Origin: Zychaea mexicana | Taxonomy: Eukaryota; Mucoromycota; Mucoromycetes; Mucorales; Lichtheimiaceae | Assembly: GCF_025766255.1 (NCBI RefSeq) | Contig: NW_026516742.1 | Coordinates: forward strand, 148,630-212,629 | DNA length: 64,000 nt | Direction of reading: 5' to 3' | Shown here: piece by piece, positions 38,866 through 60,829 of the stretch | How the letters are laid out: each line of letters begins with the position of its first letter | Numbering within the stretch: position 1 is the first letter of the stretch | Notes under the pieces: generated by a model | The model's database searches: none | What the model saw: the letters and a program-made list of their open reading frames with translations, nothing else | What the model was told of the DNA's origin: nothing | Position numbers and translations under genes: made by a program

Positions 38866-41454
38866 GTGTATTTCATCTATAACCGCCAAAATTTTCCCCA
38901 AAATTGAAAGCTATCAGCACCCCCAAAAACAAGTTTACCACAAAAGCAACCAAATAAATTGTTTCTTAAGCATCTTTAGTCTATTTCTATTTGGCTAACT
39001 TCTTAAAAAATGTTTTGGGAAGGAGAGGATAGTCGTCAAAGTCTGCCGGTTTAGGAAAATTTTGCAGGCGAAGGGGAAAATTGAAACGCACTCATGCATA
39101 TTGGGTAAATAATACTCACGTGAAAGTTCCTAATTTGGTTAGTATCTAATGCCTTACACTGTTATTCGCAAGAGCTGAGATGTGGCCACACCCTGTTCCT
39201 TCTACCAGATGCCACCACTTAGGAAGCGCCAGAAGAGCGCTAGAGAGAACGCAAAGAGAAAACAACACGATGAATATGGAAGATTCATAGCTTCGGAAAG
39301 TCCAGCGACTATTACACATGTCGATGCAGGATCTGAACTAAGTGACAACAACGACGACGATAATATCAACGATTGGGAACTCCTTGACCTGACGCACAAT
39401 ATATTACAACAGGCTGCAAAACTATCGCTGGCTTGGAAAGACGATGCAGATAAATCCATGCGTGTAGTATATAACAAAGACTCCCGTACGACCAACTGGC
39501 GAAGACGAACAGAAGCAAGAGCTGCTGCAGAAGGTTGCAAAAAGGTCGATAGTTATTTCACGAAGGTGACGCAAACGCCGTGTATACATTCAGAGAACTC
39601 TTCTAAAGCTCTCCACAAAAACCACAGCGTCGCCAATATTGATGGTGAGAGCAACTCTCACAGCTTTTAGCATCTTTAAAAGCACTTATAAAGCCGGTAG
39701 CGAACAAAGGAAGCACGCTCAATACTATGGGTGCTTTTCAAATGGCAAAAACACAAGCTGTATACCGGTACTATCACTATCGGTCACAGGGATTGATAGT
39801 TCTCAAAGAGCTGCTGTCGATATCTGGCCACCCCATCAAAAGAGTACAGGGCAAAGGCCATCCGCTACTGGGCGCGCGAATTCCGTGATTCTGGTTCCAT
39901 CTCAACACATCAACAAGGGAAGCATGTAAAAAGAGAATCACTCCTCAGTGACGAGTCCGTGGAAGAACGAATCCGTCTATTGATAGGCGGTCAAAAAATC
40001 GAACTGCGTAACCTCCCTGCTTTTGTTAAAGTTATCAATGAAAGTATCATCCCTGAGATACTTGGTGTTCCAGGCTCAGTATCACAGACGACATTATGGC
40101 GATATATGTCTGAGTGGGGTTATCGATACCGCAAAAACAGCAAGGATATATATTACGACGGGCACGAACGAGATGACGTGGTAGCATACCGATTAAAATG
40201 GGCTAAACGAATGGTGGAGTACAAGAAGCGGATGGACTCGTACGAAGGACAACGTGCAGAAATCATCATTGAGCCATCTTTAGCGCCTGATCAAAAGAAA
40301 ATTGTTATGGTTACCCATGATGAGTCAACCTTCTATGCAAACGACGGTAAACAAAAGCTATGGCTGGCAGACGGCGAGAGTATCCTACGCAACAAAAGCC
40401 CTGGACAATCCATTATGATATCCGAGTTCCAATGCGCGTGTCATGGCACAATGCGATCTGGAATATGGACCTCGCGTACATACTTCTATGCAGGGGCTAA
40501 CCGAGAACAGTATTGGACCAGCAAAGACATGGTTAAGCAGTTAGAAGAAGATGCGATCCCACTATTTGACCTTTTGCACCCTGGTTGTCAAGCATTATTT
40601 ATATTCGATCAAAGTAGTAATCATAACGCTTACCCAAGTGATGCATTACTGGCGAGAACTATGTGCAAGGATCCAAAGCGGTGTGGAGTGGATAACGCAG
40701 AGCATGACTGCAGCATGCACGTGTATCGGGACAGCTACTTTATCGATGAAGCAACCAAAGAAAAGAAAACACAAAGGATGTACATGAATATCGAAGAAAA
40801 CATTAAGAAACGCAAGCGAGGTGTCACGATAGTCACGGCCGACAAACAGCAAGTATGCCATTTCAAGGGGATAAAAATCATTTTGAATGAGCGTGGACTT
40901 TGGTTTGAGGAAGACCTGTATAGACCTGGAAAAGTTTGGCGAATGGATTGCAAAAAAGAAGAAGCGGACGATAGCAAGTGTTGTGCTAGACATTTTCTTG
41001 GTGCTCAGCCCGACTTTCGAGATCAAAAGACAGCCCTTTGTGAAGCTGTGGAGAACGCGGGTCACATTTTTGAGCTATATCCAAAATTCCATTACGAGTG
41101 CAATTGGATCGAACGATATTGGGGCCAAGCAAAGTACCATGCACGAATCAATTGTGATTACAGTTTTAAAGCTTTGAAAGAAAACTTACCAAAGTTCCTA
41201 GATACTGTTTCGCCCCCAGACGAAGTACCTACACTAATTAGACGATTTTATGGAAGGGTGTGGCGTTTTATAGACGCTTATTCCCAAGAACTACCAACTC
41301 CTGAAGCTATCACTCTTGTGGAAAGATATACTTCCCAAACTTACAGCTCACACCGTCGTGACGATTTCCCTACTATTATTTGAATATTACCAAATAAAGA
41401 AGCGGCATTTGAAATCTCAAAATTAAAACATTGGCGGTTATAGATGAAATACAC
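38866..41454 (+). mobile_element. Complete DDE DNA transposon with 23-bp terminal inverted repeats
   Basis: The ends at 38866-38888 (starting GTGTATTTCATCTATAACCG) and 41432-41454 are perfect inverted copies of each other, 2,589 bp apart, and enclose one transposase gene. TA dinucleotides lie just outside both ends, compatible with the TA target of IS630/Tc1/mariner-type elements, but flanking bases beyond TA do not match. The right end abuts the Rep-encoding AT-rich element exactly at 41455. Confidence 0.88.
39209..41383 (+). CDS. Transposase, IS630/Tc1-mariner-like DDE family of fungi
   Basis: Two exons, 39209-39644 and 39843-41383, join with a 198-base intron to 658 residues. The N-terminal 140 residues are basic then acidic. 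After the intron comes a helix-turn-helix-like region (AIRYWAREFRDSGSIST...QGKHVKRESLLSDESV) and SQTTLWRYMSEWGYRY. The catalytic triad is visible: Asp in THDESTFYANDG, Asp in FIFDQSSNH, Glu in NWIERYWGQAK. Acceptor AAAG|AG at 39842 was chosen because it joins the two conserved halves in frame. No internal stop is present, so the gene may be active. A valine codon extends the frame 27 bases upstream, but the first ATG is 39209. Confidence 0.85.
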
Positions 41455-43300
41455 TATATATCTTCTGGTAGGTTTTCCCAATCAGTAGTATCATTTATAA
41501 CATCATCACATTTTATATCATTAAACACATCTTCCCAATGCCTACAATCTGCTGATGGTAGTACCTTTACAGTTGACCATCCTCTGTTTGTTTGTTGAGG
41601 TGGTTCATCTTGATTGTTATTTTGTATATTATTATTATTATATTTTTCCTCTTGTGTTTTCATATATTTATCTGAATCAGCCAATTCTTATAAATCTTCT
41701 ACTGTTTTATCCATAGGTTTATACTTTTTAACACCATCTTGGCCACTATTAATTGCATATCGGATAAATGTATGCTGGTCTTGGTATTCATTTCTATACT
41801 CATTTTTATATAAGTCCTCATATATATCCATATTTTCATAATACATGAACTTATCTTCATAATCTTTAACATTCATTGTATATGGATTCCATATGATATG
41901 ACCTTTGCGATTCTTATCAACATAGATTATATATAAACGGCTAAGTGTTGGCTTTAACTCATATACTGATTTATTTTTATAAAGCATATGGGGCATATAA
42001 TTACTATTTAATAGTATTGGTATATTCTTTTTTTTTATGATTGATTTGGTAAATTTGCCATTAAGTTTTAGTCGTGTTCCTTCTAACATTTGGTTTAAAA
42101 ATGTTAGTTTGAAATCAGAACCAGTTTCCTCATTATACATAAAGTCATAATCATCATCTTTATAATCTGACCAATCATTGTCTTTACTCATTAGATATGC
42201 CCTGTGTCCACCTTGTTCTAACATATCAATGTTATATGTTTTTCCAACATTTGATGGACCAATAATCCAGTATTGTGGTATTTTGTTTTTACCGCTAAAC
42301 ATAGTTTCAATACCAAACATAGACCACATATACAAATCATTTCTAGGAGTATTTTCCATGTCAGCATCATGAAAATAGCTATTAAGATTAGACTTTACTG
42401 TATCATATTTCCATAGTAATTCTGGATATATTTCTGTTGCCTTTCTTATAGTAAGCTGCTTGTTAATTAATTGATAGCTAAGTAATTGTTGATGCATTTT
42501 TTTAGTTTTGATTTCGTAGTTTGGGTCCATATTATAAGCAATATAATTATTTCCTTTAATGCAGTAACTGATAGATTTTTGTGGATTACCGCCTGGTTTA
42601 ATATTTGGAGTGATACCATCAATAGTGAAAAACTTACGTGCAGTTTTAGTATCAAATCGTTCATCTAATTATATCTATATATGCACATGTTTTTTGCCTG
42701 TTTCAGGTGCAATTTTATCACATGCAATTGCCTTTTAAATTTTATAACCAATACAGTTATGTTTAGTAAACCATTCTAATATCTGTTCCTTTGTTAAATG
42801 GAAATTTTTACAAATATATGTGAATAAGCCCTTAGTGTTTTGAAAGCAGAATTCTTTCTCACCCTGTGAGGTAGCTGCACTGGAAGTGTTATCATTTAAC
42901 ATTGCATCGGAAAATTGAGGATTTGAGGATTTGAGGAATCTCACATATGCCCTAATTCTACCAATGATCTTTGATCGGCTTTGGTCCTTTGTTTTTTATC
43001 AATTTTTGTATTTTTTAAGTCTTTTTCTAGTTCATCCTTTAGTTGGTCAATGATAATGTTTAACATTATTAATATGTTGGTGATGTTCAGTAAGATGTTT
43101 AGCTCTTTTAATCAGGAGCATCAAGGTTATTCCTAAAATAGGAATGAATTCAGTCATTATAGCAAGAAATGTTAGTAAGTTAATCTGATCTATGTTGTGT
43201 TGATTGTTGTGAAAGTGTTGTAAATATAGCAGATAAATTTCGCTTAGTATTTTGAGGTGTTATTTTATATAATAAAAAAAAATTCAATTTTTATTTTTTT
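41455..43300 (-). mobile_element. AT-rich Rep element, truncated and mutated copy (copy 1)
   Basis: This block is nearly identical by eye to 47970-49782 and in the same orientation. It holds the Rep gene and the start of the downstream basic ORF, cut off at 41455 by the DNA transposon. The Rep gene is broken. The start codon position 43191-43193 reads ATA instead of ATG. One-base indels occur near 43000 and 43060. Stops fall before and directly after the HUH motif (two within four codons after HVHI). The helicase half, 41688-42530, remains open for 280 codons. The right end keeps the presumed terminal motif (AATTCAATTTTTATTTTTTT) that copy 2 has lost to the retrotransposon. Confidence 0.85.
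43284..43291 (-). promoter_or_regulatory. AAAATTGA motif upstream of Rep copy 1
   Basis: The minus strand reads AAAATTGA followed by a T run, 90 bases before the (mutated) Rep start codon. It matches the motif upstream of the other AT-rich-element ORFs and the octamer of Mimivirus early promoters. Role inferred. Confidence 0.45.
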
Positions 43301-43381
43301 CAAAAATTTAAATGTATGCATGCTAAGACATTCGTGCATGAATTATTTCAATAAAAATTAATTTGGCTATCCTGATATATC

Positions 43382-44011
43382 TTAGCTAATAAGCCAGCTA
43401 GGGCTACTAGATTGCATTAAAATCATCATAACCATAGCTGGTCCCTGGTAGGCACCAAGTATAAGCTTGACAGAGACATTCTTTCCTTCCGTTTGGTGCA
43501 GCGTGCCTATCGCGAAATCGTTGCAGTCTATCGACGGGACTAATGTTGATAAGTGGGTGGAGTCGACAGTGCTTCGTTGCTCAGCGTGGCTTTCAATTTC
43601 AGGATCGCGGCCATACACCTCCAATGACAGAATGAGGAGACCACGATGGTTTTCAGAGTCCAGCATGACTGATCTACTGAGTGCTCTTGCAACCATGTAA
43701 CACTGGTTGGGCTTGATTTCCCAGTCTTGATTCAGTGTTTCAGTAATTTCTTTATTCAATTCGATATAGTGACGCTTTGACAGGTAATTCGAGATTGCAC
43801 CCTTTTCACCAAGGCTGTGAACAGTATCACGTGTAGGAAACATATTGACCGGGGACAGCTCTTGAGTTGGACGCGTCAAGGTTATCTGTTGTGGTCTTGC
43901 AAGCATAGTTTGTAGTTGTTCGATGTGGCTTGGTGACAAGATCAAATCCACTTCGCTACCATCCTCATCGGTTAAAGCAACAGGTACAACGTCATAGAAG
44001 TCTGCAAACAT
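43382..44011 (-). CDS. Hypothetical protein, probably spliced at its 5' side
   Basis: A minus frame of 209 codons begins at MFADFYDVVPVALTDEDGS; no domain is recognised. The upstream sequence suggests that the true exon starts after TTTGCAG at 44004, and that a GTGAGT donor at 44093-44098 links it to an upstream hydrophobic exon. That would put the Met inside an intron border rather than at the start. Base composition is host-like, unlike the AT-rich Rep elements on either side. Function unknown. Confidence 0.45.
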   Translation of the reverse strand: MFADFYDVVPVALTDEDGSEVDLILSPSHIEQLQTMLARPQQITLTRPTQELSPVNMFPTRDTVHSLGEKGAISNYLSKRHYIELNKEITETLNQDWEIKPNQCYMVARALSRSVMLDSENHRGLLILSLEVYGRDPEIESHAEQRSTVDSTHLSTLVPSIDCNDFAIGTLHQTEGKNVSVKLILGAYQGPAMVMMILMQSSSPSWLIS

Positions 44012-45229: not shown

Positions 45230-45934
45230 TTATACTGTGCTTAGAGATTTGAAGTGTGACGATTGGTAGGATTTTAGATGGTCGGTTAGGGAAGGGATGA
45301 CATATTTTTTGTTTGCAGTAGAGATATACGGCGACAACGAGTTGGCCAACTCCTCGGCAAAAGAATTCAGCACTGAGTTTCCGATGATAGGAATGGAGGC
45401 ATCAGTTTCGAACAAGCTGAGTATACGTAGAAAAACGTCCTTGGTCTTGGTATCCTTGGTGAATAGGGCTGTAAGCTTTTCCACGTCGTTCTTGCTCAAA
45501 TGGGCATTTTCACCTTCCCTCATGACCGCGGTTGACAAGGCAGCCAATAACTTCGATGCCAAGACTCCGGAATTGAGCGATGTGGTCGTTTTGCCGTATG
45601 TGAACACCGTGATCGGCTGCTGAAGGTGTCCATGGAATAGTAAAGATCGTGATAAATAGTACGTTTGTATATCATGAAATTTTGTTTTGAGCTGTCGCAG
45701 CTGCATGTGCCGGGAGTGGGTATAAATGGAATTTGAATTGTCATTATTGTCAAGTGCCAAAGAATCGGACCATGATTGCGAGTCCAGGTATAATTTATAT
45801 GTTGACCGTGGAGGTACCACAAAGTTTACTGTGTTTAGCCCGCACTCCAGATGATGCGTAACGCTGTCAATTCGCTTGCTTGCGGTGATAAGGGCGTTGA
45901 AGGGGTGGCGTCCTGCTATTAGTTGTCTAACCAA
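45230..45934 (-). CDS. Hypothetical protein, single exon
   Basis: An uninterrupted 234-codon minus frame begins MVRQLIAGRHPFNALITASK. It has mixed, globular-looking composition, with a helical C-terminal part (NDVEKLTALFTKDTKTKDVF, FAEELANSLSPY). No family is recognised. It ends about 90 bp from the AT-rich element that starts near 46021, which may have inserted in its upstream region. It is probably a host gene or the surviving part of one. Confidence 0.5.
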   Translation of the reverse strand: MVRQLIAGRHPFNALITASKRIDSVTHHLECGLNTVNFVVPPRSTYKLYLDSQSWSDSLALDNNDNSNSIYTHSRHMQLRQLKTKFHDIQTYYLSRSLLFHGHLQQPITVFTYGKTTTSLNSGVLASKLLAALSTAVMREGENAHLSKNDVEKLTALFTKDTKTKDVFLRILSLFETDASIPIIGNSVLNSFAEELANSLSPYISTANKKYVIPSLTDHLKSYQSSHFKSLSTV

Positions 45935-46030
45935 TTATAACCTACTAGCTGTAATATAGATAATAAAATTGCTATAGTCGGTATAACCATCAGTGGCCGA
46001 AATAATTATTGATTTACAATAAAAATAATA

Positions 46031-46038
46031 AAAATTGA
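46031..46038 (+). promoter_or_regulatory. AAAATTGA motif upstream of the DDE transposase
   Basis: AAAATTGA followed by a T run lies 75 bases before the ATG at 46114. It is part of the presumed terminal repeat and matches the motif before the other AT-element ORFs. Confidence 0.45.
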
Positions 46039-46113
46039 ATTTTTTTATTTATATTGGTAGCCTCCCACGAGAAAAAAAAAGCGATTGTTTAAAGTACATA
46101 ACAATAAATAAAA

Positions 46114-47594
46114 ATGAACACAACACAACACACTGAACAACTCGATATTGAAATTAAAAATTTAATTGATTATAAATGGACTTTTCTTGATAAATCTTGG
46201 CCTGAAATGCAACATAGATTTAATCATAGAACAGCTATTAAAGATATGAAGAATAATACAATAAATGATATAAAGATGTATTACTTAATAGATTTGGATT
46301 TATACCTGTATTTTATTTTCTTACATTTTATATGGAAATATTGAATATCCAGGGCCATACCGCGAGATTGAAAAAGGACTTGCATTATTATATCATATGG
46401 TATCAGGTGTATCAGGAAAGGATATGCATACTGTTATGCCATATGCAACATTTATGATTTATATAAGCGGTTCTGGATTACTAACTATAATGAATTGAAT
46501 AAAAAGGTAAAACAAGATCTAGATGGTATGTTCTCATCACCACGTATTCGCATTCTATCAGCAATAATAAACAATCCAGATGGTTTTAAGAATGTTACAC
46601 TATTTATTGATGGACATGATAGTAAAATAAAGTATTATAAACCAAATGAGTCACATTCACAGTTATATTCATATAAATTAAAAGGGCCAGCTGTACGTAC
46701 ATAAGTTATACAGGATATGAATGAAATAATTACACATGTTTCAGTATCTGAAAAATGTGCTATCGGAAATGATGGTACTATGTTTATTAATATGAAACTA
46801 TATAAAAAAATAAGTGAGGCAGATTGTTTAGGAATGGATGGTGGATATAACTTATTTATCAAAAGTTTAAAGATAATGCGACAGATGCTGGATATAGGTT
46901 TTATGATCGTAATTTTTTACAACCTATAAGAAAAGAACCAGGACAAAAGTTAACAATCAATGAGACATACTTTAATAACAAGTTTGGATCATTTCGTTCA
47001 GCAATAGAAGCACAGTTCTCTATGTTAGGCTCTAAATTTGAACGATTTAATAATAATCGTGCAGCATTGCAAATAACCGATATAAGATATTATAATATTC
47101 AGTTTCGTGTTGCTTGTATTCTTACTAATATATGGCGATTTGTAAATAAGTATAATATAGAGGTACAACCACATCATAAATTATGGTATGGGAAAGATTT
47201 TGAATTCCCAAGTAAGAAAAACAAACTTGACTTAGTATTTTCAAATGAGCAAAAAGTAAATACTGAATATAACGAAATGGTTGACATGCAGCAGAAATTT
47301 CTACAGCTTGACATTAATCAATCAATAGATATGGCTATAGATAGTGAGGACGAAACTGAAAATAATACATCTAAACGTAAGAGAAAAAATCAAAGAGAAC
47401 AGAGAAATATAGAACATAGTAATTCATATGAAATTGAGAAGATTGTAGGACATGTGTATACTAATAATAAGTACATATTTGAGGTTAAGTGGGTTGGATA
47501 TAGTGTAAAGGATAATAGTTGGTTAACAGTTGATAAGTTTAATTCCCGGGAAATGCTACATGAATATATGGCCACACATGGTATTCAGCTCTAA
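46114..47594 (+). pseudogene. Harbinger/IS5-like (DDE_Tnp_4) transposase with C-terminal chromodomain, broken
   Basis: Four frame segments (46114-46344, an open piece to about 46497, 46495-46929 with an in-frame TAA at 46702-46704, and 47022-47594) line up as one transposase of about 490 residues. Catalytic landmarks are FIDGHDSKI (first Asp), SYKLKGPAVRTQVIQDMN with ITHVS, LGMDGGYNLF (second Asp), and NNKFGSFRSAIEAQFSMLG with the final Glu, the layout of HARBI1-type enzymes. The last 60 residues form a chromodomain: EIEKIVGHVYTNNKYIFEVK then WVGYSVKDNSWL. Chromodomains read methylated histones and could steer insertion. Two frameshifts and one stop make this copy inactive. Its stop codon overlaps that of the facing minus ORF. 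Confidence 0.75.
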
Positions 47595-48175
47595 ATTAAT
47601 TTCTTACTTATTTGCTTATTAAAAAATCTCATATTGAAACTGGCTGTATCAACCTTTCGTTTACTTGCCCAATTATATTTATGTTTTATGCATTCATTAG
47701 TTATACTTGTACTTATATTAGTATCTGTTGATTTATTTTTGACGTCAGTTTCTTTTGTTATATTTATATCATCTATTATAGCCTGTTTTATATCCTTATG
47801 CTTTTTAAAATATTCTTTTGGCTGTATTTCTTCTACTATTTGCTTGTTTCTCCGTTTATTTTTATTGTGTCTTTTTTTCTTTTTACGTTTTGGTATATTA
47901 TTTGGTATGTTGCAGTCACTGCTTTTCTCTGATTCAGATGTACTTACATCTATGTATTTATGTTTCTCTATATCTTCTGGTGGGTTTTCCCAATCAGTAG
48001 TATCATTTATAACATCATCACATTTTATATCATTAAACACATCTTCCCAATGCCTACAATCTGCTGATGGTAGTACCTTTACAGTTGACCATCCTCTGTT
48101 TGTTTGTTGAGGTGGTTCATATTGATTGTTATTTTGTATATTATTATTATTATATTTTTCCTCTTGTGTTTTCAT
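47591..48175 (-). CDS. Basic Asn/Lys-rich protein downstream of, and in frame with, Rep
   Basis: The open frame continues directly after the Rep stop: DL-TAA-EL. The only Met near the start is at 48173-48175; the longer frame from 48196 would need TTG or readthrough. Visible content: an N-rich segment, GWSTVKVLPSADCRHWEDVF, an acidic Ser/Glu block, a strong nuclear-localisation-like run (PKRKKKKRHNKNKRRNK), then a Lys/Asn-rich tail. Copy 1 keeps the same stop and the first part of the frame. It could be a separate protein, or a C-terminal extension reached by stop readthrough. The basic tract suggests nucleic-acid binding; a capsid-like role is possible but unsupported. Confidence 0.6.
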   Translation of the reverse strand: MKTQEEKYNNNNIQNNNQYEPPQQTNRGWSTVKVLPSADCRHWEDVFNDIKCDDVINDTTDWENPPEDIEKHKYIDVSTSESEKSSDCNIPNNIPKRKKKKRHNKNKRRNKQIVEEIQPKEYFKKHKDIKQAIIDDINITKETDVKNKSTDTNISTSITNECIKHKYNWASKRKVDTASFNMRFFNKQISKKLI

Positions 48176-48199
48176 ATATTTATCTGAATCAGCCAATTC

Positions 48200-49705
48200 T
48201 TATAAATCTTCTACTGTTTTATCCATAGGTTTATACTTTTTAACACCATCTTGGCCACTATTAATTGCATATCGGATAAATGTATGCTGGTCTTGGTATT
48301 CATTTCTATACTCATTTTTATATAAGTCCTCATATATATCCATATTTTCATAATACATGAACTTATCTTCATAATCTTTAACATTCATTGTATATGGATT
48401 CCATATGATATGACCTTTGCGATTCTTATCAACATAGATTATATATAAACGGCTAAGTGTTGGCTTTAACTCATATACTGATTTATTTTTATAAAGCATA
48501 TGGGGCATATAATTACTATTTAATAGTATTGGTATATTCTTTTTTTTTATGATTGATTTGGTAAATTTGCCATTAAGTTTTAGTCGTGTTCCTTCTAACA
48601 TTTGGTTTAAAAATGTTAGTTTGAAATCAGAACCAGTTTCCTCATTATACATAAAGTCATAATCATCATCTTTATAATCTGACCAATCATTGTCTTTACT
48701 CATTAGATATGCCCTGTGTCCACCTTGTTCTAACATATCAATGTTATATGTTTTTCCAACATTTGATGGACCAATAATCCAGTATTGTGGTATTTTGTTT
48801 TTACCGCTAAACATAGTTTCAATACCAAACATAGACCACATATACAAATCATTTCTAGGAGTATTTTCCATGTCAGCATCATGAAAATAGCTATTAAGAT
48901 TAGACTTTACTGTATCATATTTCCATAGTAATTCTGGATATATTTCTGTTGCCTTTCTCATAGTAAGCTGCTTGTTAATTAATTGATAGCTAAGTAATTG
49001 TTGATGCATTTTTTTAGTTTTGATTTCGTAGTTTGGGTCCATATTATAAGCAATATAATTATTTCCTTTAATGCAGTAACTGATAGATTTTTGTGGATTA
49101 CCGCCTGGTTTAATATTTGGAGTGATACCATCAATAGTGAAAAACGTACGTGCGGTTTTAGTATCAAATCGTTCATCTAATTGTATCCATATATGCACAT
49201 GTTTTTTGCCTGTTTCAGGTGCAATTTCATCACATGCAATTGCCTTTTCAATTTTATAACCAATACGGTCATGTTTAGTAAACCATTCTAATATCTGTTC
49301 CTTTGTTAAATGGAAATTTTTACAAATATATGTGAATAAGCCCTTAGTGTTTTGAAAGCAGAATTCTTTCTCACCCTGTGAGGTAGCCGCACTGGAAGTG
49401 TTATCATTTAACATTGCATCGGAAAATTGAGGATTTGAGGATTTGAGGAATCTCACATATGCCCTAATTCTACCAATGATCTTTGATCGGCTTTGGTCCT
49501 TTGTTTTTTTGTCAATTTTTGTATTTTTTAAGTCTTTTTCTAGTTCATCCTTTAGTTGGTCAATGATAATGTTAACATCATTAATATATTGGTGATGTTC
49601 AGTAAGATGTTTAGCTCTTTTAATCAGGAGCATCAAGGTTATTCCTAAAATAGGAATAAATTCAGTCATTATAGCAAGAAATGTTAGTAAGTTAATCTGA
49701 TCCAT
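48200..49705 (-). CDS. rep: Replication-associated protein (HUH endonuclease + SF3 helicase), CRESS-DNA-virus type
   Basis: An intact 501-residue frame. Rolling-circle motifs: I, LFTYI at 123-127; II, HVHIW with His169 and His171; III, YCIK with catalytic Tyr210 and Lys213. Helicase motifs: Walker A GPSNVGKT at 312-319, Walker B region DYDFMYNEE at about 348-355, motif C ILLNSN at 393-398. This order is that of Rep proteins of circular ssDNA viruses and related plasmids, which nick an origin and drive rolling-circle replication. Unusually, residues 6-28 form a hydrophobic, membrane-like segment, followed by a charged coiled-coil-like stretch before motif I. A later start would remove both. 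The LTR of the retrotransposon begins 77 bases upstream and has displaced the presumed promoter. Confidence 0.85.
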   Translation of the reverse strand: MDQINLLTFLAIMTEFIPILGITLMLLIKRAKHLTEHHQYINDVNIIIDQLKDELEKDLKNTKIDKKTKDQSRSKIIGRIRAYVRFLKSSNPQFSDAMLNDNTSSAATSQGEKEFCFQNTKGLFTYICKNFHLTKEQILEWFTKHDRIGYKIEKAIACDEIAPETGKKHVHIWIQLDERFDTKTARTFFTIDGITPNIKPGGNPQKSISYCIKGNNYIAYNMDPNYEIKTKKMHQQLLSYQLINKQLTMRKATEIYPELLWKYDTVKSNLNSYFHDADMENTPRNDLYMWSMFGIETMFSGKNKIPQYWIIGPSNVGKTYNIDMLEQGGHRAYLMSKDNDWSDYKDDDYDFMYNEETGSDFKLTFLNQMLEGTRLKLNGKFTKSIIKKKNIPILLNSNYMPHMLYKNKSVYELKPTLSRLYIIYVDKNRKGHIIWNPYTMNVKDYEDKFMYYENMDIYEDLYKNEYRNEYQDQHTFIRYAINSGQDGVKKYKPMDKTVEDL

Positions 49706-49782
49706 GTTGTGTTGATTGTTGTGAAAGTGTTGTAAATATAGCAGATAAATTTCGCTTGGTATTTTGAGGTGTTATTTTATAT

Positions 49783-50285
49783 TGTAGTGACAATTCCCCG
49801 CTTACAATAAAGATTTCTTTCTTGCCACCATACTCGATTTCGTCCACATAAATTCGCGCACTCTTATTGGTTCCTTGCTAATGTCAACTTGGTATTTGCT
49901 TTTATCACATTAGCATTAGCTCTTATCACATTAGCATTAGCTTTTATCACATTAGCATTAGCTTTTGTCGCATTAGCATTAGCAAACCACGAATCACATA
50001 GCTAGAAACCGACACATCAATTAGTATAAATGGCCCCTTTCTTTCCATTCGATTTCAGTTCAGTTCATCTCTTATCTCTTTTTCTTAACTCTTCTTCTTA
50101 ATAAAGAATCTCTTAAGTGGCTTTCGGACGTAAACATCCCCGAATCTTGAACTCCCACTTCTTCTTTCTACTTCTCATCAGATCAGCTTTGATAGCTCAT
50201 TTAAGGCCCATAAATTGCCTTTTTCCTTTATTCTCACTTCATTTCCATTGTATCCAGAGTATAGCCGACGCTCTGCGATACTACA
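49783..50285 (+). repeat. 5' LTR
   Basis: It begins TGTAGTGACAATTCC and ends GCGATACTACA. It holds a four-copy 21-bp repeat (49901-49984), a TATAAA-like GTATAAATGG near 50024-50033, and AATAAAGAATC at about 50101, plausible U3 promoter and R/U5 signals. The following bases TTTGGTGCTCAC should contain the primer-binding site; I could not assign the tRNA. Confidence 0.93.
49901..49984 (+). repeat. 21-bp tandem repeat in the LTR (four units)
   Basis: Four units of the type TTTATCACATTAGCATTAGC lie head to tail in U3, with the last carrying GTCGCATT. The 3' LTR has the same array. Repeated U3 blocks often act as enhancers in LTR elements. Confidence 0.9.
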
Positions 50286-50477
50286 TTTGGTGCTCACTAG
50301 AGGGATCGTTTAACAAGAAACGGCCCATATAACAACTCAATAAATCACAAAACAAACATTTATTAACCCTTCAAACATACTCTCCACAAAATAACAATAA
50401 TAAGAAAACCACACATATACAACCCATAAACATTACCTTAAATCCAACCAACAATAAGAAACCAAGCAAACAGCAAA

Positions 50478-53400
50478 ATGAGCAGTCAATCCAAGTACGC
50501 ACCTCGAACCTCTCGCGAAACCGACGACTATGTTGGATCCTCATCCGACATACCTCTGTTGGCACATGGCACCGATACATTGAGCTACAAGCCGAGACTC
50601 GTCGACTTTTGCGGCTATGAGGGCGAAGATTTCCGCTATTTCAGGGAGACCCTTGAGTCGTACTTTGCGATTGCAAACATTACCGATACCAAACGACAAG
50701 CCAGCATCTTGAATGCACAAGTCAAAAAATATGCACGCATTTTCCTGCAAGGATTGATCCGTGCTGACAATAAACTTGGAAGCGACTATCACGAATTGAT
50801 CAAGCAGTTGGAACGAGAATATGTAACGCCAGACGTTATCGAATATTACAAGGACGCATTTGACCAAATCACGCAAGGAGAGGATGAACCCCCACGAATG
50901 TTCCTGGGTCGCATTCAGCAAGCTGCGGATCTGGCTGCCTTGTCTTCTGGTGAAGCTGATGCATTGATAGCGGCAAAATTTAAGTCAGGATTGTTGCCTC
51001 GTGTTAAGCAGCATTGCTACATGATGGGAGCAAACACCTTCGAACAATATAAGAAATTCGCATACGGTTATTGGCGAGGTCGACATGGAACCACCCTGTA
51101 TCCTCAGGATAACCCTTTCCTGCCACAAGCAGAGGAGGACAGAATCCCTACCTCATGGATAAGCAGAAATCAAACCCCTAAAGAAACCATAAAGAAGGCC
51201 CGTACCAAAGCCTTCCGCCCACCTAATCTGAATAACGCCAGCGGTAGCACGACTCCTGCGATCGACGCACTCACCAAACAAATGCAAAACCTGGAATTAT
51301 TCCAACATGAGTCGGCCGATGTCGATAACACCGCTCCGCAAAGCTTGGAAGGCATGCTGCGCCGCCTAATCCAGGAAGAAACGAAGAGAGTAGCTGAAAG
51401 TACCTTTAGAAACAACGATTATCGCTCGCGATATAACCGAAACCAAAACCGCAGTGATAATTACCAGCATAACGGTAACGGGAGGAACAACTCGTACCGC
51501 TCCAATGACTATAACCGTCGTGATAGCTACCAACGGCCCTACAACTCGAACAGACGGGAAAACGAAACGCGTTACTCCCCACGAGAAGACGGAAATAGGG
51601 ACCGTAACCACCAACGCAACGATAGCAATAGGGAGCCACCCGCTCGACCTAACTCGCCTTCAGGAACGTTCGCCTTTATGGAGGAATATGACTATACACC
51701 GGTGGAAAGAGACCTGTATGAAGACGACGGGTATTTCGAAGATTGTGGGTCAGAGTACGAAACGGACTATGAGGACGACGAAGAACTGCATGTTCAAGAT
51801 GACGAGCTGTACGCGGCCCAACAACCAGCAGTAAGATCGACCACACGACAATTACGCCCTCGCAACGAAGCAGGTAAGGTACAAAAGAACAATTCGCAAA
51901 AGAGAGTAGAATTTCGAGACCCTCCTGTTCGACGACGAAAGAAACAAGCCACGACCGGTCCCACGGTACCTCGTGATGAGCCCCTAACGAGACAGGTCCC
52001 CATGACAACGCCCATTAGCAACCAAGTCAACACACAAACCAGACCAACACAGCCAACCCTTGCCGCACCTACCACAGGTCTACAATCAGCCTTCGGACAG
52101 ACGGCCCTGTCCAAGAACAACACGATGCCGGCCGCGAAACAATGGACTCAGCTCAGAACCCCTACAGATAACATGGACATTGACTCACCATCGGAGGGAG
52201 CTGAGGTCAAAACGAAACAAAATACCTCGCCATTCGCACCTACACCACCTACCCCAGCAAAAAACAGAAGTGTAGCGGGAAGAGCCGCGCAAGAAAAATC
52301 GACCCCTCAGAAAAATAAAAATACACCCAAGAGAACCCAAAAATCGCCAACCCAAAATAGAAACAGAAAACCCGTAAACACAACCCAGACCAACATCAAA
52401 CGTACCCCATACGATGTCTCTGCAGACTTGCTAAGCAGAACAGCCGATATCAGTTTCGGTCAACTACTAGGCGTCGCTCCATCTCTACGACGACAAGTTA
52501 CTAAAGCGTGTCGAGACACACGTACCTTGGCCGTATTAGATGAAGAGTCTGTACCGTCGCCCGCGACAACAGCGCTTTACACGACCTTCTTATTGTACGA
52601 CACGCCCGTAAAGACCTTGGTAGATTCAGGCGCCAGCCGCACCTGTATGTCCCAACGTCTAGCACAAAAACTCGGTCTTGAGATCGATGAACCATCGACA
52701 GCTGTCTTCAAACTAGGCAATGGAGCCCGCCACGCTTCGTTGGGCATCATAAACAACGTAGAGTTGCAACCACACGGGACGGATTCTGTCCCTGCTGCAG
52801 TAGAAGTACTACCCTCCTGTCCTAACGACCTTATTATCGGAAATAACTGGCTCAAGCAAGCCCAAGCTACGATCGACTATAAGACCAAGCTCTTATGGAT
52901 ACATCACGGCGAAACTCGGTCAATTCCCGTCACTTATGAACGACCAAAGTTGAGTCTAGAACAACCATGGGAAGAAGAACCCACTACAGATGACGACGAA
53001 GCGGCATCCGCCACGACAGAAGATTCGACCGCATCGACTACTGGAAACGAATCGTCAGACCAAGAGTCCTCGTCCCTAGCTGATGAGATGCTGACCAACG
53101 AATATTGGCTTGAGGATGAGTTGTTCGCCATTGTCGAAACCGCTCAGCCACTAGAATTGATAAAAGAACACGACACGCTGCATCTGATAACCAACGATTC
53201 TATCGACATCGAAGCTGCATCCTACCAGACATATGAGATAGATATCCCAACAATATTGAAATCTTCCAACACCTATATCTTCGATACCACGCAAGCTTTA
53301 CCTGATCACATTGGAATCCACTGCGGAATCCTCTACCCAACCGATAAAACTTTCAGAATTTCAATCATCAACATGTCAGACACGCAGAGCTTTACCTTCG

Positions 53401-54986
53401 GAGCTGATGAAATACTTGGGGAATTATACGCTGTCACCACCCATGACCAAGGCTACGAGCTGGTCATTGAGCCTAAGACGCCGCGACAAATAATCTCCAT
53501 GCCTACCGAACTTAAACCACTTACTACGGCACAACGAGAACTCTTCAATCTAGGAGAACTAGATCCAGAGCTACGAGCAGAATTCTACCATTTGATTACT
53601 CAATTCCAAGACATATTTGACTGGGACGGAGAGACTATTGGGAGAACAGATTTTATCAAACACGACATCATCACTGAAAAAGACACGGCTCCCATCCGTC
53701 ACCGACCATACCGCATGAGCCCTTTGGAACTCAAACATCTCAAAATTGAGCTCGACAAGTATTGTAAAATGGGTATCATCCGGCCATCCAACAGCCCTTG
53801 GGCCGCACCCATTATCATGATTCGCAAGAAAAGTCTACCAGGCGACACCGAGCCACGGTATCGTCTCGTTGTTGACTATAGGAAATTGAACGCAGTAACA
53901 CGCTTTGATGCCTATGCAGGCGTGCCACGAATTGACGAGCTCCTGCACAACCTCACCGTTACCTCATCCACCGCCTTTAGCAGCCTTGACCTTTCTAAGG
54001 GATTCTATAACGTGCCACTCAGCGAAGACGCTATCCCTAAGACTGCGTTCACCACCCGCTTTGGCCTGTATGAGTACTTACGCATGCCTATGGGCCTTGC
54101 TAACTCGGTACAGACGCTCGGTCGCGTAATGAGTAGTTGCTTACGCGCCCTACTTAACCGCACTTGTCTTATTTACTGCGATGACTTGATTTGCTACGAA
54201 AAAGATCAGCGATCACATATCCGTAACCTGCATCACGTATTCTCCTGTTTACGCCGCGCTGGCTTGATCCTCAACCCTCAAAAGTGCAGTTTTTTCCAGA
54301 AAGAACTCAAATTCCTCGGCTACATTGTATCAGCAGAAGGAATCCAAACTGACCCTGCCAAAGTCGAAAAAATCGCTAACTTCGAACGGCCTCAAACCGT
54401 CAAAATGCTTAAAAGTTTCATCGGTTGCGCCTCCTATTACCGGTCATTCGTAAAAGGCTTTGCCAAAATTGCACGACCATTACACGAGATGACAAAAGAT
54501 GGCACCATCAAGCTCCAGTGGACCCCGGACGCGGTTACCGCGTTCGAAGCGCTGAAGGAAGCACTCTGTACAAGCCCCATACTTGCCTATCCGGACTATA
54601 ACAAACGATTCGTCCTATGCTGTGACGGAAGCTCCCACGGATATGGTTGTGTCCTTAGCCAATACGGCGACGACGGCAAGGAACATGTCATTCTGTACCT
54701 CCGCAAAGGCCTGCAGCCAAATGAACGCTCATGGTCCGCCAGCAAACTCGAATGCGGCAGTGTCATTTTCGCCGTAACACGTCTAAGACCTTACCTTCTT
54801 GGCTCCAAAGAGAAATTTCTCATCCTGACCGATCACGCCAGTCTAAAGGGACTACTAAACGCAACAAACCTAACCGGCATTTTAGCCCGATGGGTGCTCA
54901 CACTCTCCGAGTACTCCTTTGAAGTCAAATATCGACCTGGCAAAGAGAACAAGAATGCCGACTTTCTCAGTCGCTTAGGATATTAA
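50478..54986 (+). CDS. Gag-Pol polyprotein (gag, protease, reverse transcriptase, RNase H)
   Basis: A single 1,502-codon frame. Residues about 40-230 form a retrotransposon Gag domain. No CCHC zinc knuckle follows; instead an Arg/Asn-rich region (about 315-390) could bind RNA. The aspartic protease shows LVDSGASRT near residue 717. Reverse transcriptase shows LVVDYRKLNAVT, FSSLDLSKGFYNVPL, the YEYLRMPMGL strand and the catalytic YCDDL near 1233. RNase H shows CCDGSSHGYG near 1381, ending RPGKENKNADFLSRL. The integrase is not in this frame: a stop at 54984-54986 ends it. YCDD in place of the usual Y(I/V/L)DD is unusual but keeps both Asp. Confidence 0.93.
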   Translation: MSSQSKYAPRTSRETDDYVGSSSDIPLLAHGTDTLSYKPRLVDFCGYEGEDFRYFRETLESYFAIANITDTKRQASILNAQVKKYARIFLQGLIRADNKLGSDYHELIKQLEREYVTPDVIEYYKDAFDQITQGEDEPPRMFLGRIQQAADLAALSSGEADALIAAKFKSGLLPRVKQHCYMMGANTFEQYKKFAYGYWRGRHGTTLYPQDNPFLPQAEEDRIPTSWISRNQTPKETIKKARTKAFRPPNLNNASGSTTPAIDALTKQMQNLELFQHESADVDNTAPQSLEGMLRRLIQEETKRVAESTFRNNDYRSRYNRNQNRSDNYQHNGNGRNNSYRSNDYNRRDSYQRPYNSNRRENETRYSPREDGNRDRNHQRNDSNREPPARPNSPSGTFAFMEEYDYTPVERDLYEDDGYFEDCGSEYETDYEDDEELHVQDDELYAAQQPAVRSTTRQLRPRNEAGKVQKNNSQKRVEFRDPPVRRRKKQATTGPTVPRDEPLTRQVPMTTPISNQVNTQTRPTQPTLAAPTTGLQSAFGQTALSKNNTMPAAKQWTQLRTPTDNMDIDSPSEGAEVKTKQNTSPFAPTPPTPAKNRSVAGRAAQEKSTPQKNKNTPKRTQKSPTQNRNRKPVNTTQTNIKRTPYDVSADLLSRTADISFGQLLGVAPSLRRQVTKACRDTRTLAVLDEESVPSPATTALYTTFLLYDTPVKTLVDSGASRTCMSQRLAQKLGLEIDEPSTAVFKLGNGARHASLGIINNVELQPHGTDSVPAAVEVLPSCPNDLIIGNNWLKQAQATIDYKTKLLWIHHGETRSIPVTYERPKLSLEQPWEEEPTTDDDEAASATTEDSTASTTGNESSDQESSSLADEMLTNEYWLEDELFAIVETAQPLELIKEHDTLHLITNDSIDIEAASYQTYEIDIPTILKSSNTYIFDTTQALPDHIGIHCGILYPTDKTFRISIINMSDTQSFTFGADEILGELYAVTTHDQGYELVIEPKTPRQIISMPTELKPLTTAQRELFNLGELDPELRAEFYHLITQFQDIFDWDGETIGRTDFIKHDIITEKDTAPIRHRPYRMSPLELKHLKIELDKYCKMGIIRPSNSPWAAPIIMIRKKSLPGDTEPRYRLVVDYRKLNAVTRFDAYAGVPRIDELLHNLTVTSSTAFSSLDLSKGFYNVPLSEDAIPKTAFTTRFGLYEYLRMPMGLANSVQTLGRVMSSCLRALLNRTCLIYCDDLICYEKDQRSHIRNLHHVFSCLRRAGLILNPQKCSFFQKELKFLGYIVSAEGIQTDPAKVEKIANFERPQTVKMLKSFIGCASYYRSFVKGFAKIARPLHEMTKDGTIKLQWTPDAVTAFEALKEALCTSPILAYPDYNKRFVLCCDGSSHGYGCVLSQYGDDGKEHVILYLRKGLQPNERSWSASKLECGSVIFAVTRLRPYLLGSKEKFLILTDHASLKGLLNATNLTGILARWVLTLSEYSFEVKYRPGKENKNADFLSRLGY

Positions 54987-55364
54987 CGTCATTACTATTT
55001 TCGACCAGTACCCGGGAAGTCGTTAAAAGCATGAGGACACGCTTTTCTTTTTACCGGCGCAACCCGGCACCCCCTATTTACAACTTTTTGCTACACTTAA
55101 ACAAACAAAACACAATAAACCCACACAAAACACAAGAAAACAATATAACCCCACAAAAAAAAACAACTCCTTTCTACATATCCACACTTTCGCTTATAAT
55201 CTTTTATTTTCGCTATTCACATTTTCTTACTCTTATCTACATGCATTTTCGCGCATTCAACTGCCGCGCTGATCAACACAACATTCTCATTTACCCAAAC
55301 ACAACTTACCCTTTTTAATTATAACACAAACCACACCATCATCTGACAACTGACAACTTCACAA
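54987..55364 (+). other. A/C-rich spacer between Pol and Integrase ORFs
   Basis: About 380 bases without a plausible gene (a 95-codon frame reads as low-complexity). The middle is rich in AAACAAACAAAACACAATAA-type sequence, resembling the leaders before gag and before ORF4. It may act as a leader for separate integrase expression. Confidence 0.45.
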
Positions 55365-56672
55365 ATGCTGACAACTCTGACAATACACACAATGGACACA
55401 AAGAAATTAGCTTTATTACATCATTATCTCAACACGCTAGAATACCCTCCGGGTATCACAAAGCAACAGGAACGATACCTAGCATCACAAAGCAAAAATT
55501 ATCTCGTATACAACGACCGCGTTTACCGACGACAAGGTGCCGGTATCCGCCTTGTACTCAACAAGCAAGAAGCCGACAATGCTATCTGGACATACCACTT
55601 CTATCCTACCGGCGGTGCTCATTATGCGCTACACACAACATACCAACGCATAGCACAACGCTATTACTGGGAAGGAATGCGACGCGACATACAGCTCACA
55701 ATAGCACAATGCTCCCGATGTCAACGACATGGAAAACCCGAGAAAATCGAACTACTACACCCGATACCCGTTGAACCAGAACCATTCACGATGGTCGCAC
55801 TAGATATCAAACACCTCAGACCATCTCGTGCTGGTCACTCATACGTCATTGCAAGTATCGACTATCTGACGAACTACGTCAACGCAAAGCCGGTCCGCCT
55901 CGCAAATGCCACAGAGGTCGCTCTATTCATATATCAAAACATCATCTGCACGCACTCACACATCAAAGTACTACTCACCGACAGAGGATTGCCAGTCAAC
56001 AACAAAATCATCGACGAAATCTGTAACAACTTCAATATCGAACACTGCATGGCGAGCGCTTTCTCACCTAGCGTAAACGGAAAAATTGAACGATGGAACC
56101 GCAGCCTAGCACAAGGATTGAAGCGATTATCTAACGAAGAAAAAGCAGACTGGAGCGCGTACCTGCCCTCGCTGGTACTCAGTTACAATAGCCGCATCCA
56201 CTCGACAACGAAGGCATCACCCTTCTACTTACTATACGGCCGTCACCCTTGGACACCGTTCGACAGATCCGTACCACAAATAGAAAGCAACACAGATGTG
56301 ACAGCCTGGACACAAAAGGAATATGACACCTGGATGGACACACATCTCAGACTTCTCAGGAACATCCGGCAGAACGCAGCCGACACCATCAAAGTATCCC
56401 AGCAAAATCAAAAGAAAGCACTAGATCGGAAAATACTCGGCAAGAAAAAGCACCTGCTGCAACCACCGTTTAAAATTGGGGACGCAGTGCTAGTTTATCA
56501 TAACGCTATCGAATCGTCGTTCTCAGCAAAAATGGAAGACATGTGGAATGGTCCTTACATTGTGCACCACAGCAACGGAAAACACGGATACACTCTTAAG
56601 ACACTAGAAGGGAAAATGTTACGAGGCACGATACACGGAAACCGAATGCGTATATATACCAGCCCAACGTAG
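55365..56672 (+). CDS. Integrase, encoded as a separate ORF
   Basis: A 435-codon frame starts at the first ATG; a second ATG at 55392 is equally possible. The zinc-binding domain has His78, His86, Cys116 and Cys119. The catalytic core has Asp147 (VALDIKH), Asp206 (LLTDRGLP) and Glu242 (NGKIERWNRS), with the standard 58 and 35 residue spacings. The C-terminal GPY-type module (MWNGPYIVHHS...YTLKTLEGK) is present and there is no chromodomain. In most Ty3/gypsy elements the integrase is fused to RT-RNase H; here a stop and 378 bases separate them, so it needs its own translation start or transcript. Confidence 0.92.
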   Translation: MLTTLTIHTMDTKKLALLHHYLNTLEYPPGITKQQERYLASQSKNYLVYNDRVYRRQGAGIRLVLNKQEADNAIWTYHFYPTGGAHYALHTTYQRIAQRYYWEGMRRDIQLTIAQCSRCQRHGKPEKIELLHPIPVEPEPFTMVALDIKHLRPSRAGHSYVIASIDYLTNYVNAKPVRLANATEVALFIYQNIICTHSHIKVLLTDRGLPVNNKIIDEICNNFNIEHCMASAFSPSVNGKIERWNRSLAQGLKRLSNEEKADWSAYLPSLVLSYNSRIHSTTKASPFYLLYGRHPWTPFDRSVPQIESNTDVTAWTQKEYDTWMDTHLRLLRNIRQNAADTIKVSQQNQKKALDRKILGKKKHLLQPPFKIGDAVLVYHNAIESSFSAKMEDMWNGPYIVHHSNGKHGYTLKTLEGKMLRGTIHGNRMRIYTSPT

Positions 56673-56719
56673 CGTTTCGACCGACATACACCTCCCGATA
56701 CAAACAACCCGAAGAAACG

Positions 56720-57145
56720 ATGTCGACACCCAACCATCCTGACATCCTCGCGTCCCTGGATGAAATCGCGCCGCCTGCAGGACCCCAAAACCAAGGCTAC
56801 AGCCACGATGACATCTTGGCTATCCTCGCGCAACTCGACGAGACGAAACTCTCCCCAGCTTTGGTAGACCGGGTCAGAGACCAACTCGAGCGGGAAAGCG
56901 TGGCGCGACGAATCCACGAAACACGAGCAGAAGTAGTTAATCTCCTCGTGCAAGAAATCTTTGACAAAGACGCATTATATCAACAATGCCGCCGTCACAA
57001 CGCCCGACACGCTGGACTCACAGCAATCTTCCGGGCCGTAGGCTTGCCTACTGGCGCATTAGATCCTTCGCACCCGTTCCGCAAGGCATTGACCAAAGCC
57101 TTTTCGGCTGCCGCTAGGGCACGACGTAATATAGTGAACGCTTAA
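56720..57145 (+). CDS. Accessory ORF 3 of the retrotransposon, unknown function
   Basis: A 141-codon frame lies 48 bases after the integrase stop. The product is helical and charged (HDDILAILAQLDETKLSPAL, RDQLERESVARRIHETRAEV) with a basic Ala/Arg-rich C-terminus. No domain is recognised; no signal peptide or membrane helix, so it is not an envelope protein. An AATAAA and a 23-A run follow, suggesting that it was once an mRNA 3' end. Confidence 0.6.
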   Translation: MSTPNHPDILASLDEIAPPAGPQNQGYSHDDILAILAQLDETKLSPALVDRVRDQLERESVARRIHETRAEVVNLLVQEIFDKDALYQQCRRHNARHAGLTAIFRAVGLPTGALDPSHPFRKALTKAFSAAARARRNIVNA

Positions 57146-57184
57146 TTACATGTAATAGCTCCACCATCACCACCACAATATTGA

Positions 57185-57197
57185 AATAAAGCAATTC

Positions 57198-57220
<23 letters not shown>
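57185..57220 (+). other. AATAAA plus 23-nt poly(A) tract inside the retrotransposon
   Basis: AATAAA at 57185-57190 is followed seven bases later by 23 uninterrupted A (57198-57220), then by unrelated A/C-rich sequence. This is the footprint expected of a captured polyadenylated transcript. Confidence 0.75.
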
Positions 57221-57228
<8 letters not shown>

Positions 57229-57404
57229 AAACACAAAACAAAACACAAAAAAGAACAGTTACAAAAGCGAAACACACAAGATGTCCAAAACATATACAAC
57301 ACAATATACAGAACAAGTATCGATCACTGCTCTACTGTTACCCGCATTCGCGCGCGGCTGCATTAACATTAAACCAACCCGGATCGTCAAACTCCGCAGA
57401 GCCG

Positions 57405-57483
57405 CTCAAGGCATAAGCTGATTCTCCCTTAGCATAAGCTAATTCCACCGTAGCATAAACTAATTCCACTATAGCATAAGCTG
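57405..57483 (+). repeat. 21-bp tandem repeat upstream of ORF4
   Basis: Three units of the type ATTCCACCGTAGCATAAACT (57421-57441, 57442-57462, 57463-57483), with a partial unit before. The period equals that of the LTR repeat, and AGCAT/CTAAT words recur, but the sequences are not the same. Confidence 0.75.
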
Positions 57484-57659
57484 CGTCCGAGATAGCAAAT
57501 GCTAACGCTATACAAGCATAAACCGACACTACCATAACACGAAGCACGACACCCGCATTGTATCGAAACCGAATAATATAAATATCTGTACATCTCCAAA
57601 CCATCCGTCTTCATTAATCTAATCGTCACAATAAACCTTTTCTTCTTACGAAATCGACC

Positions 57660-58271
57660 ATGCCCTACAACAGCTACCCCTCGCCATCCTATTCCCCATC
57701 GTCCTTGTTCGACTCTCCCCCCTCAACGACAACTGCTTCATCGGCACCGACACCCGACCAAATATCGGAATGGGATAAGCCTGTCGAGTTGCCCATTCAT
57801 ACTCACCAAGATCACGCCGACGAGCCACCAAAGTACCAACCGAACCCAACCGCACCTTGCCTTGTTGACTGTAGCGGTGGCAAACTTGTTTATCGATTAT
57901 ACGACCCCGACTTTGTACCGCCGCCCTTATATCCAGAATCCAAGGACCTCCGAGTCGAAATGGGATATTTCTTTGACCTCACCCAAGAGTGCGTTGCCCA
58001 ACATATCAACCACCGCAAAGCCAAGGAAAAGCTGGCTACTGCCCGCCGTCTCCTCGCTCACCGCATCGCCGTCCGTTTGTCTGCCGTCCTCCGGCGTTAC
58101 CGGGATGAAGCTGCGCGCCAGCGCGTTATCCGTCGCTATATCCACTTGCACATACACGACACGTTTATTTCGACCGACGAATCACTTTTCTCCCTTATAA
58201 ACATCTATTATAACAAGATGCTCGGGGATGGTCTGCCCGCAGACATGGCCGCCCGGGACGTGCGGATCTAA
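57660..58271 (+). CDS. Accessory ORF 4 of the retrotransposon, unknown function
   Basis: A 203-codon frame ending 13 bases before the 3' LTR. The first 60 residues are Ser/Pro/Thr-rich; the middle has VDCSGGKLVYRLYDPDFVPP and the rest is strongly helical and basic (AKEKLATARRLLAHRIAVRL, RRYRDEAARQRVIRRYIHLH). No recognised domain, signal peptide or membrane helix. Position between integrase and the LTR is where some gypsy elements keep envelope-like or other extra genes. Confidence 0.65.
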   Translation: MPYNSYPSPSYSPSSLFDSPPSTTTASSAPTPDQISEWDKPVELPIHTHQDHADEPPKYQPNPTAPCLVDCSGGKLVYRLYDPDFVPPPLYPESKDLRVEMGYFFDLTQECVAQHINHRKAKEKLATARRLLAHRIAVRLSAVLRRYRDEAARQRVIRRYIHLHIHDTFISTDESLFSLINIYYNKMLGDGLPADMAARDVRI

Positions 58272-58284
58272 AGCCAGGGGGCTA

Positions 58285-58941: not shown

Positions 58942-58980
58942 ATTTTTTTTAATTATAAAAATAAACATCATAATATTGTT

Positions 58981-60808: not shown

Positions 60809-60829
60809 TTTCTTTTTCCTTTTGAATGA

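Follow-up and report, generated by a model that had tools for sequence, protein, structure and literature searches.

Among elements that join a replication initiator gene (Rep) to a transposase, the closest described system is the geminivirus-like transposon of Tuber melanosporum, in which a Rep open reading frame (ORF) and two transposase ORFs lie within 37-bp terminal inverted repeats (TIRs) (Liu et al., 2011; PMC3198968). Section 8 of that account reports 42 Rep genes or remnants, copies >95% identical to each other and no obvious target-site duplications (TSDs), and names in that section neither the transposase family nor a chromodomain nor a selection test (PMC3198968). On the transposase side, PIF/Harbinger (PHIS) lineages lacking a Myb/SANT-like partner protein are described in a passage of PMC12730594. 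Here we analysed a stretch of 64,000 nucleotides of Zychaea mexicana (contig NW_026516742.1; the whole stretch is called the window), in which a sequence-only reading had proposed one compact element joining a Rep of the circular-virus type with a DDE transposase (Tnp) that ends in a chromodomain. The copy in the window proved to be a damaged member of a repeated family that holds both genes between common ends.

The genome (50.3 Mb, 305 contigs) contained at least 88 Rep and at least 154 Tnp matches. The 88 Rep matches were merged into 68 Rep loci, and the pairing count used 76 of the 154 Tnp matches (72 at ≥61% identity and four at 50–55%), those left out being other families at ~40–56% identity. 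A convergent Tnp lay within 2.5 kb at 42 of the 68 Rep loci, and in 31 of these 42 the gap between the two genes measured 602–642 bp. Every one of the 20 tabulated units of 3.7–4.6 kb running from a left end (LE) to a right end (RE) carried both genes (8 and 12 units from two end-pair sets); the remaining LE–RE units of those two sets were shorter derivatives, or longer as nested insertions would make them. Segmental duplicates occur among the loci (the C46, C120, C273, C79 and C294 pairs), so that independent insertions are fewer than these counts. Inspection by eye of the 65 genome matches of a second Rep query (P0008) revealed no additional Rep family. The joining of Rep and DDE transposase in one element was thus borne out by the same gene order, gap and ends on different contigs. 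Rep and DDE blocks always standing separate, each with its own ends, were not what the genome showed: many copies have both between common ends. A derivative family with Rep only (L003, L006, L008, L027) lacks most of Tnp (approximately window positions 46078–47377) at about the same place.

The element ends were sharp against unique flanks in other copies, the left end beginning GGCGTCC and the right end finishing GGTCCCC after an RE region that continues for ~172–180 bp in those copies. At least 40 LE and at least 40 RE copies were present in the genome. An exact 3-bp TSD, of varying sequence, was found at 18 of 32 usable end pairs (9/13 and 9/19 in the two sets); mismatched flank pairs, taken as the chance control, agreed exactly over 3 bp in 2.6%. 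The first set had 18 rows, of which six touching an internal junction (see below) were excluded, with 8 of the remaining 12 exact, and the C115 tandem scored by its outer ends brings this to 9/13; the second set would stand at 10/19 if the C198 row, with two end bases unmatched, were counted. Inverted repeats at the two ends are weak, with pairing at 9 of the 13 terminal bases and at 12 of 26 overall; pairing of at least 9 of 13 terminal bases arises in 0.00085 of random places. An inverted AT palindrome lies inward of both ends. In three copies (L005, L013, L028) the RE region itself holds nested insertions; the one in L028 begins GGAGAGTAAC, seems to be flanked by TTA and is perhaps another element with 3-bp TSDs.

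Tnp frames of 494 aa without stops were present in other copies (L037–L040), and a 494-aa copy matched PF13359 (DDE_Tnp_4) at E = 7.5e-12. In an alignment of 15 Tnp sequences D167 and E300 were invariant and D243 nearly invariant, and these we take to be the catalytic D, E and D, respectively; a PDB search for Tnp gave no result. Taken together, the DDE_Tnp_4 domain, the conserved D, D and E, the 3-bp TSDs and the ends identify the element, at the level of sequence, as a PIF/Harbinger-type transposon by mechanism. The Rep of the window copy carries motif I (FTYICK), the HUH motif (HVHIW), YxxK (in SYCIKG), Walker A (GPSNVGKT), Walker B (YDFMYNEE) and motif C (LLNSN). It matched solved Rep endonucleases (9pqf, E = 8.7e-7), and the Rep profile also matched 1l2m/1l5i. 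Gemini_AL1 was matched by 8 of 11 aligned Reps at E ≤ 0.1, with the window Rep under the curated cut-off. Longer open Rep frames were found in other copies (e.g. 710, 714 and 721 aa), and all motif strings were kept in 4 of the 9 Rep copies, the window copy included, that are stop-free over a 501-aa region. No Myb domain match was found in Rep, in the orphan protein X described below or in the scanned small proteins of relatives; the partner of Tnp is Rep. Searches of PHROGs with Rep, three of its relatives and X gave weak matches only (0.0059 to 0.1), X matching a Cox-like excisionase family at 0.042.

The same nine stop-free copies served to estimate the ratio of nonsynonymous (dN) to synonymous (dS) substitution rates. 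Compared with the eight others, the window copy gave a Rep dN/dS of 0.08–0.10 at dS 0.76–1.20, and the median over pairs with dS > 0.02 was 0.15. By this estimate Rep has evolved under strong purifying selection between subfamilies and is not a passenger. When the window copy was compared bin by bin with 12 others, the first 2 kb was 94–99% identical (77% in one bin of one copy) and the Rep half 70–96%; such a far greater divergence of the Rep half than of the Tnp half indicates that elements have swapped Rep cassettes.

Beyond this genome, the nearest named proteins were from Circinella minor for Tnp (78%) and Rhizopus stolonifer for Rep (54%). Ten Rep relatives, with 38–63% identity over the alignment, came from R. 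stolonifer, from R. arrhizus and from contigs whose sources are lgn and jgi, and the Rep region with the helicase motifs was conserved across species. For both the Rep relative P0004 and the Tnp relative P0032 the longest contig is 4459 bp; most simply this is one contig, and another organism then probably has a Rep–Tnp pair. Four of the more distant chromodomain-DDE loci of the Z. mexicana genome were examined, none of them at the Rep matches listed; three (L072–L074) adjoin a small Cys-rich protein, and for L075 no neighbour of this kind was recognised.

In some units the orphan gene X (287 aa in L067) stands in place of Rep with the same element ends, and X and Rep have a short linker peptide and the RE region in common. 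A 188-aa X query found 101 places, the first 31 rows (E ≤ 7e-25) being X-type and many others the C-terminus that Rep has in common with X. No capsid gene was recognised, X having no Pfam match at E ≤ 0.01 and no database relative (1495 candidates, none at E ≤ 0.001). The unit types were Tnp+Rep, Tnp+X (C112, C115), X alone and Rep alone (C68, C140, C57, C115). At seven loci units were joined head to tail, with RE followed by a 15-bp AT-rich spacer, TGWATTTTTAAAATT (with point changes), and then LE; the reversed-pattern control gave 0. A search with spacer plus LE returned the same seven junctions and none elsewhere, a search with RE plus spacer returned four of the seven, and single insertions were without the spacer. 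Units occurred in both orders: X then Tnp+Rep in C53 and C303 (the latter with extra sequence inside), Tnp+Rep then X in C51 and C79 (with X shortened), besides Rep then X (C194), Rep then Tnp+X (C115) and Rep then Tnp+Rep (C174). C140 and C174 have their left flank and element in common (96% over 3.3 kb) and diverge exactly at the right end, beyond which one has target DNA with the TSD and the other the spacer and a new unit. Similarly, one left flank precedes a single copy in one member of the C79 pair and a tandem in its partner; a search of the genome and part of the tandem copy found the single copy's right flank only at its own place. The C115 tandem has the same three bases (TGA) outside both of its outer ends.

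The explanation we lean towards, with confidence a little above even, is one PIF/Harbinger-type transposon family that has a Rep of the circular Rep-encoding single-stranded (CRESS) DNA virus type as its partner gene and passes through a Rep-dependent circular phase. It starts from what was observed, namely both genes between common ends, DDE-type ends with 3-bp TSDs and purifying selection on Rep, and from these we infer the steps that follow. Tnp would cut the element at LE and RE and then insert it, its chromodomain possibly steering insertion to marked chromatin. Rep would nick and replicate circles that connect RE to LE through the 15-bp spacer, and this replication might yield head-to-tail multimers and mix the units (Tnp+Rep, X, Tnp+X, Rep only), from which Tnp could insert single units, the spacer being dropped, or sometimes a whole multimer. 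A circle or multimer containing RE–spacer–LE is suggested by a fixed spacer that single insertions lack together with both unit orders, which are the expected outcome if a circle is opened at one junction or the other. We also entertain, more tentatively and at less than even confidence, a modular and possibly two-component fungal circular replicon, copied by its own CRESS-type Rep via a palindromic 15-bp junction, with the chromatin-reading DDE transposase as integrase and the X unit as second component; Tnp would then open the circle at the abutted ends, discard the spacer and insert the unit with a 3-bp duplication. If true, this would be a eukaryotic counterpart of integrative plasmids.

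Several results weigh against a Rep-dependent circular phase of the transposon. Circular molecules were not observed, the RE–spacer–LE junctions being indirect evidence of them, and seven junctions are few against at least 40 ends of each kind and could all go back to a single old tandem. Six of the seven junctions and two ends folded no better than shuffles (z from −1.4 to +1.8), so that no origin hairpin of the CRESS type was detected there, and a search of viral contigs with the Rep profile gave 147 pattern matches, none confirmed. An adjoining Tnp was lacking at 26 of the 68 Rep loci, some of them fragments or at contig ends, and an exact TSD at 14 of the 32 end pairs. TSDs also flank a Tnp+X unit without Rep (C112) and Rep units without Tnp (C68, C140), which indicates that each gene is dispensable in cis. 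At least one exact motif string is missing from five of the nine stop-free Rep copies (L007, L008, L009, L012, L026). Finally, dN/dS was 0.5–1.1 in the three most recent Rep pairs with synonymous change (L012, L017, L026) and 0.24–1.57 for Tnp at dS 0.004–0.071 (15 pairs, 6 copies), so that no clear constraint is visible among recent inserts.

The lack of a hairpin at the folded junctions also speaks for a purely linear cut-and-paste transposon, in which Rep would be an end-binding or nicking helper replacing the Myb/SANT-like protein and the tandems would come from one old event and later have moved as composites. The partner slot indeed looks exchangeable, three of the four distant loci having a different small Cys-rich protein and no Rep; the C115 tandem with TGA outside both outer ends looks as if moved in one piece; and recombination within a tandem can give the single and tandem forms on one left flank seen in C140/C174 and the C79 pair. 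However, a circle or an array of no fewer than three units is required to explain both unit orders with one spacer sequence, and purifying selection on a helicase-motif region conserved across species goes beyond the needs of a DNA-binding role. We consider the linear explanation rather unlikely, though the main competitor. A circular plasmid or virus as the primary lineage, perhaps with the X unit as a second component, and with chromosomal copies as dead-end integrations by a captured transposase, we regard as improbable. A nearly constant spacer confined to the seven junctions, Rep cassettes that are far more diverged than the Tnp of the same copies and X units with both ends in common, like components with a common region, all fit it; against it, neither a capsid gene nor a database relative of X was recognised, no relative appeared among viral contigs, and the TSD-flanked derivatives behave like ordinary non-autonomous transposons.

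That two unrelated elements came to nest or fuse by chance at the window locus is a reading that draws on the broken genes of the window copy and on its Rep half, whose distance from other copies far exceeds that of its Tnp half. It was rejected, and we give it next to no credence, because the same order, gap and ends recur in many insertions on different contigs. Of the three origins that the sequence-only reading had left open, a transposon replicating through Rep and a plasmid or virus that gained a transposase both stand, and the chance nested insertion drops out. Helitrons encode a RepHel protein (HUH plus superfamily 1 (SF1) helicase) and have neither TIRs nor TSDs; a Helitron identity was ruled out by the superfamily 3 (SF3)-type motifs and the TSDs.

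In the window, the element copy occupies 45907–49783. The sequence-only reading had noticed its AT-richness (26–34% GC against mostly 38–50% in the surroundings), and its features are collected in the table below.

Features of the element copy in the window and of adjoining elements (positions in the window).
Feature	Positions	Strand	Remarks
Left end (LE)	45907–46113	+	Begins GGCGTCCTGCTATTAG; subterminal AT palindrome 46021–46054; boundary sharp against unique flanks of other copies
Transposase (Tnp) gene, DDE_Tnp_4 and C-terminal chromodomain	46114–47594	+	Frame broken in window copy
Chromodomain of Tnp	47427–47540	+	Pfam PF00385, residues 193–230 of 247-aa piece
Rep C-terminal piece	47591–48199	-	In frame, past stop codon in window copy
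Rep: N-terminal domain, HUH endonuclease ~49052–49354, SF3 helicase motifs ~48506–48790	48200–49705	-	
Beginning of right-end (RE) region	49706–49783	-	Remainder lost in window copy
Long terminal repeat (LTR) retrotransposon cutting window copy	49784–58787	+	LTRs 49784–50285 and 58286–58787; not part of the element
Second copy: Rep part and right end (at 43446), without Tnp	41454–43446	-	98.8% identity to 47966–49782

Both genes are broken in this copy: Tnp is spread over several frames, and an in-frame stop near 48.2 kb divides Rep into a 501-aa piece and a further in-frame piece reaching 47591. The gene content that had been read from the letters held up, with a plus-strand Tnp piece (46851–47594) matching both Pfam Chromo (1.1e-6) and DDE_Tnp_4 (1.9e-5), a minus-strand Rep in which every HUH and SF3 motif string is present, and convergent frames that overlap at their stops (47591–47594). 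Its boundaries did not: the proposed span of 46021–49782 misplaced both ends, since the element begins at 45907 and its right end is missing, the sequence stopping at the junction (49783/49784) with the LTR retrotransposon. The end motif thought to be shared at 49782 straddles that junction, and the true common feature is the inverted AT-rich palindrome near both ends. The two LTRs of the retrotransposon are 99.2% alike, and its gag-pol-like ORF starts at 50478. The second, partial copy has seven stops when read through, its near-identity to the Rep part of the main copy notwithstanding; of the 21 differences between the two, which include 2 indels, 12 are C-to-T or G-to-A changes on the coding strand, the pattern expected from cytosine deamination.

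Beyond the retrotransposon, AT-rich pieces of an IS1595/Merlin-like transposase lie at 58942–60035 (plus strand) and 60470–60853 (minus strand), matching PF12760 (1.3e-3) and PF12762 (9.2e-6), both under the curated cut-off. The small Cys-rich protein adjoining them looks, by eye, similar to the partner protein of the distant loci L072–L074, and one accessory protein seems to be common to two transposon superfamilies, Merlin-like and distant chromodomain-DDE. Just upstream of the Merlin-like gene, 58934–58977 matches the RE region of an X unit, including the AT palindrome of the Rep-element ends, which suggests a common promoter or replication signal.

A selected, multi-copy rolling-circle initiator together with a cut-and-paste transposase forms a lasting bridge from single-stranded DNA replicons to DNA transposons and is more than an isolated viral fossil. 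With it one can test whether a eukaryotic DDE transposon amplifies by Rep-driven circles or relies on host replication, and the junctions provide concrete sequences for such a search.

Compared with known systems, the Zychaea element resembles the CRESS-DNA viruses and Rep plasmids (with Gemini_AL1-type Rep) in its HUH and SF3 motifs and in two genes converging at their 3' ends. It differs from them in having no recognised capsid and no origin hairpin at the folded junctions and ends, in moving by a DDE transposase and in long C-terminal and N-terminal extensions. With PIF/Harbinger transposons it has in common a DDE_Tnp_4 transposase, 3-bp TSDs and a second gene beside the transposase; there the second gene is Myb/SANT-like, whereas here it is a CRESS-type Rep or the orphan X, and Tnp carries a chromodomain in addition. 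Teratorn likewise joins replication genes of virus type to a cut-and-paste transposase, but as described in a passage of PMC10175614 it is a 180-kb union of a herpesvirus with piggyBac in fish. A literature survey, mostly not of full texts, found no fungal Rep-plus-transposase element beyond that of Tuber. The sequence-only reading had known of no described family with this gene set; with the Tuber precedent of 2011 this is right in part only, the section on that element mentioning neither a transposase family nor a chromodomain nor a selection test (PMC3198968). Both are repeated fungal elements in which a geminivirus-like Rep and transposase ORFs lie between inverted-repeat ends, those of the Zychaea element being weak. 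Compared by description only, the Tuber element has 37-bp TIRs and no obvious TSDs and the Zychaea element imperfect short TIRs and 3-bp TSDs; the latter further departs from the section on Tuber in its chromodomain DDE_Tnp_4 transposase, old selected Rep lineages, X units and spacer junctions. We conclude that the union of Rep and transposase has precedent and that the Zychaea element is a variant of that known kind, in which the chromodomain Harbinger-type transposase, 3-bp TSDs, evidence that Rep was selected over the long term, the X component and the spacer junctions seem to be new.

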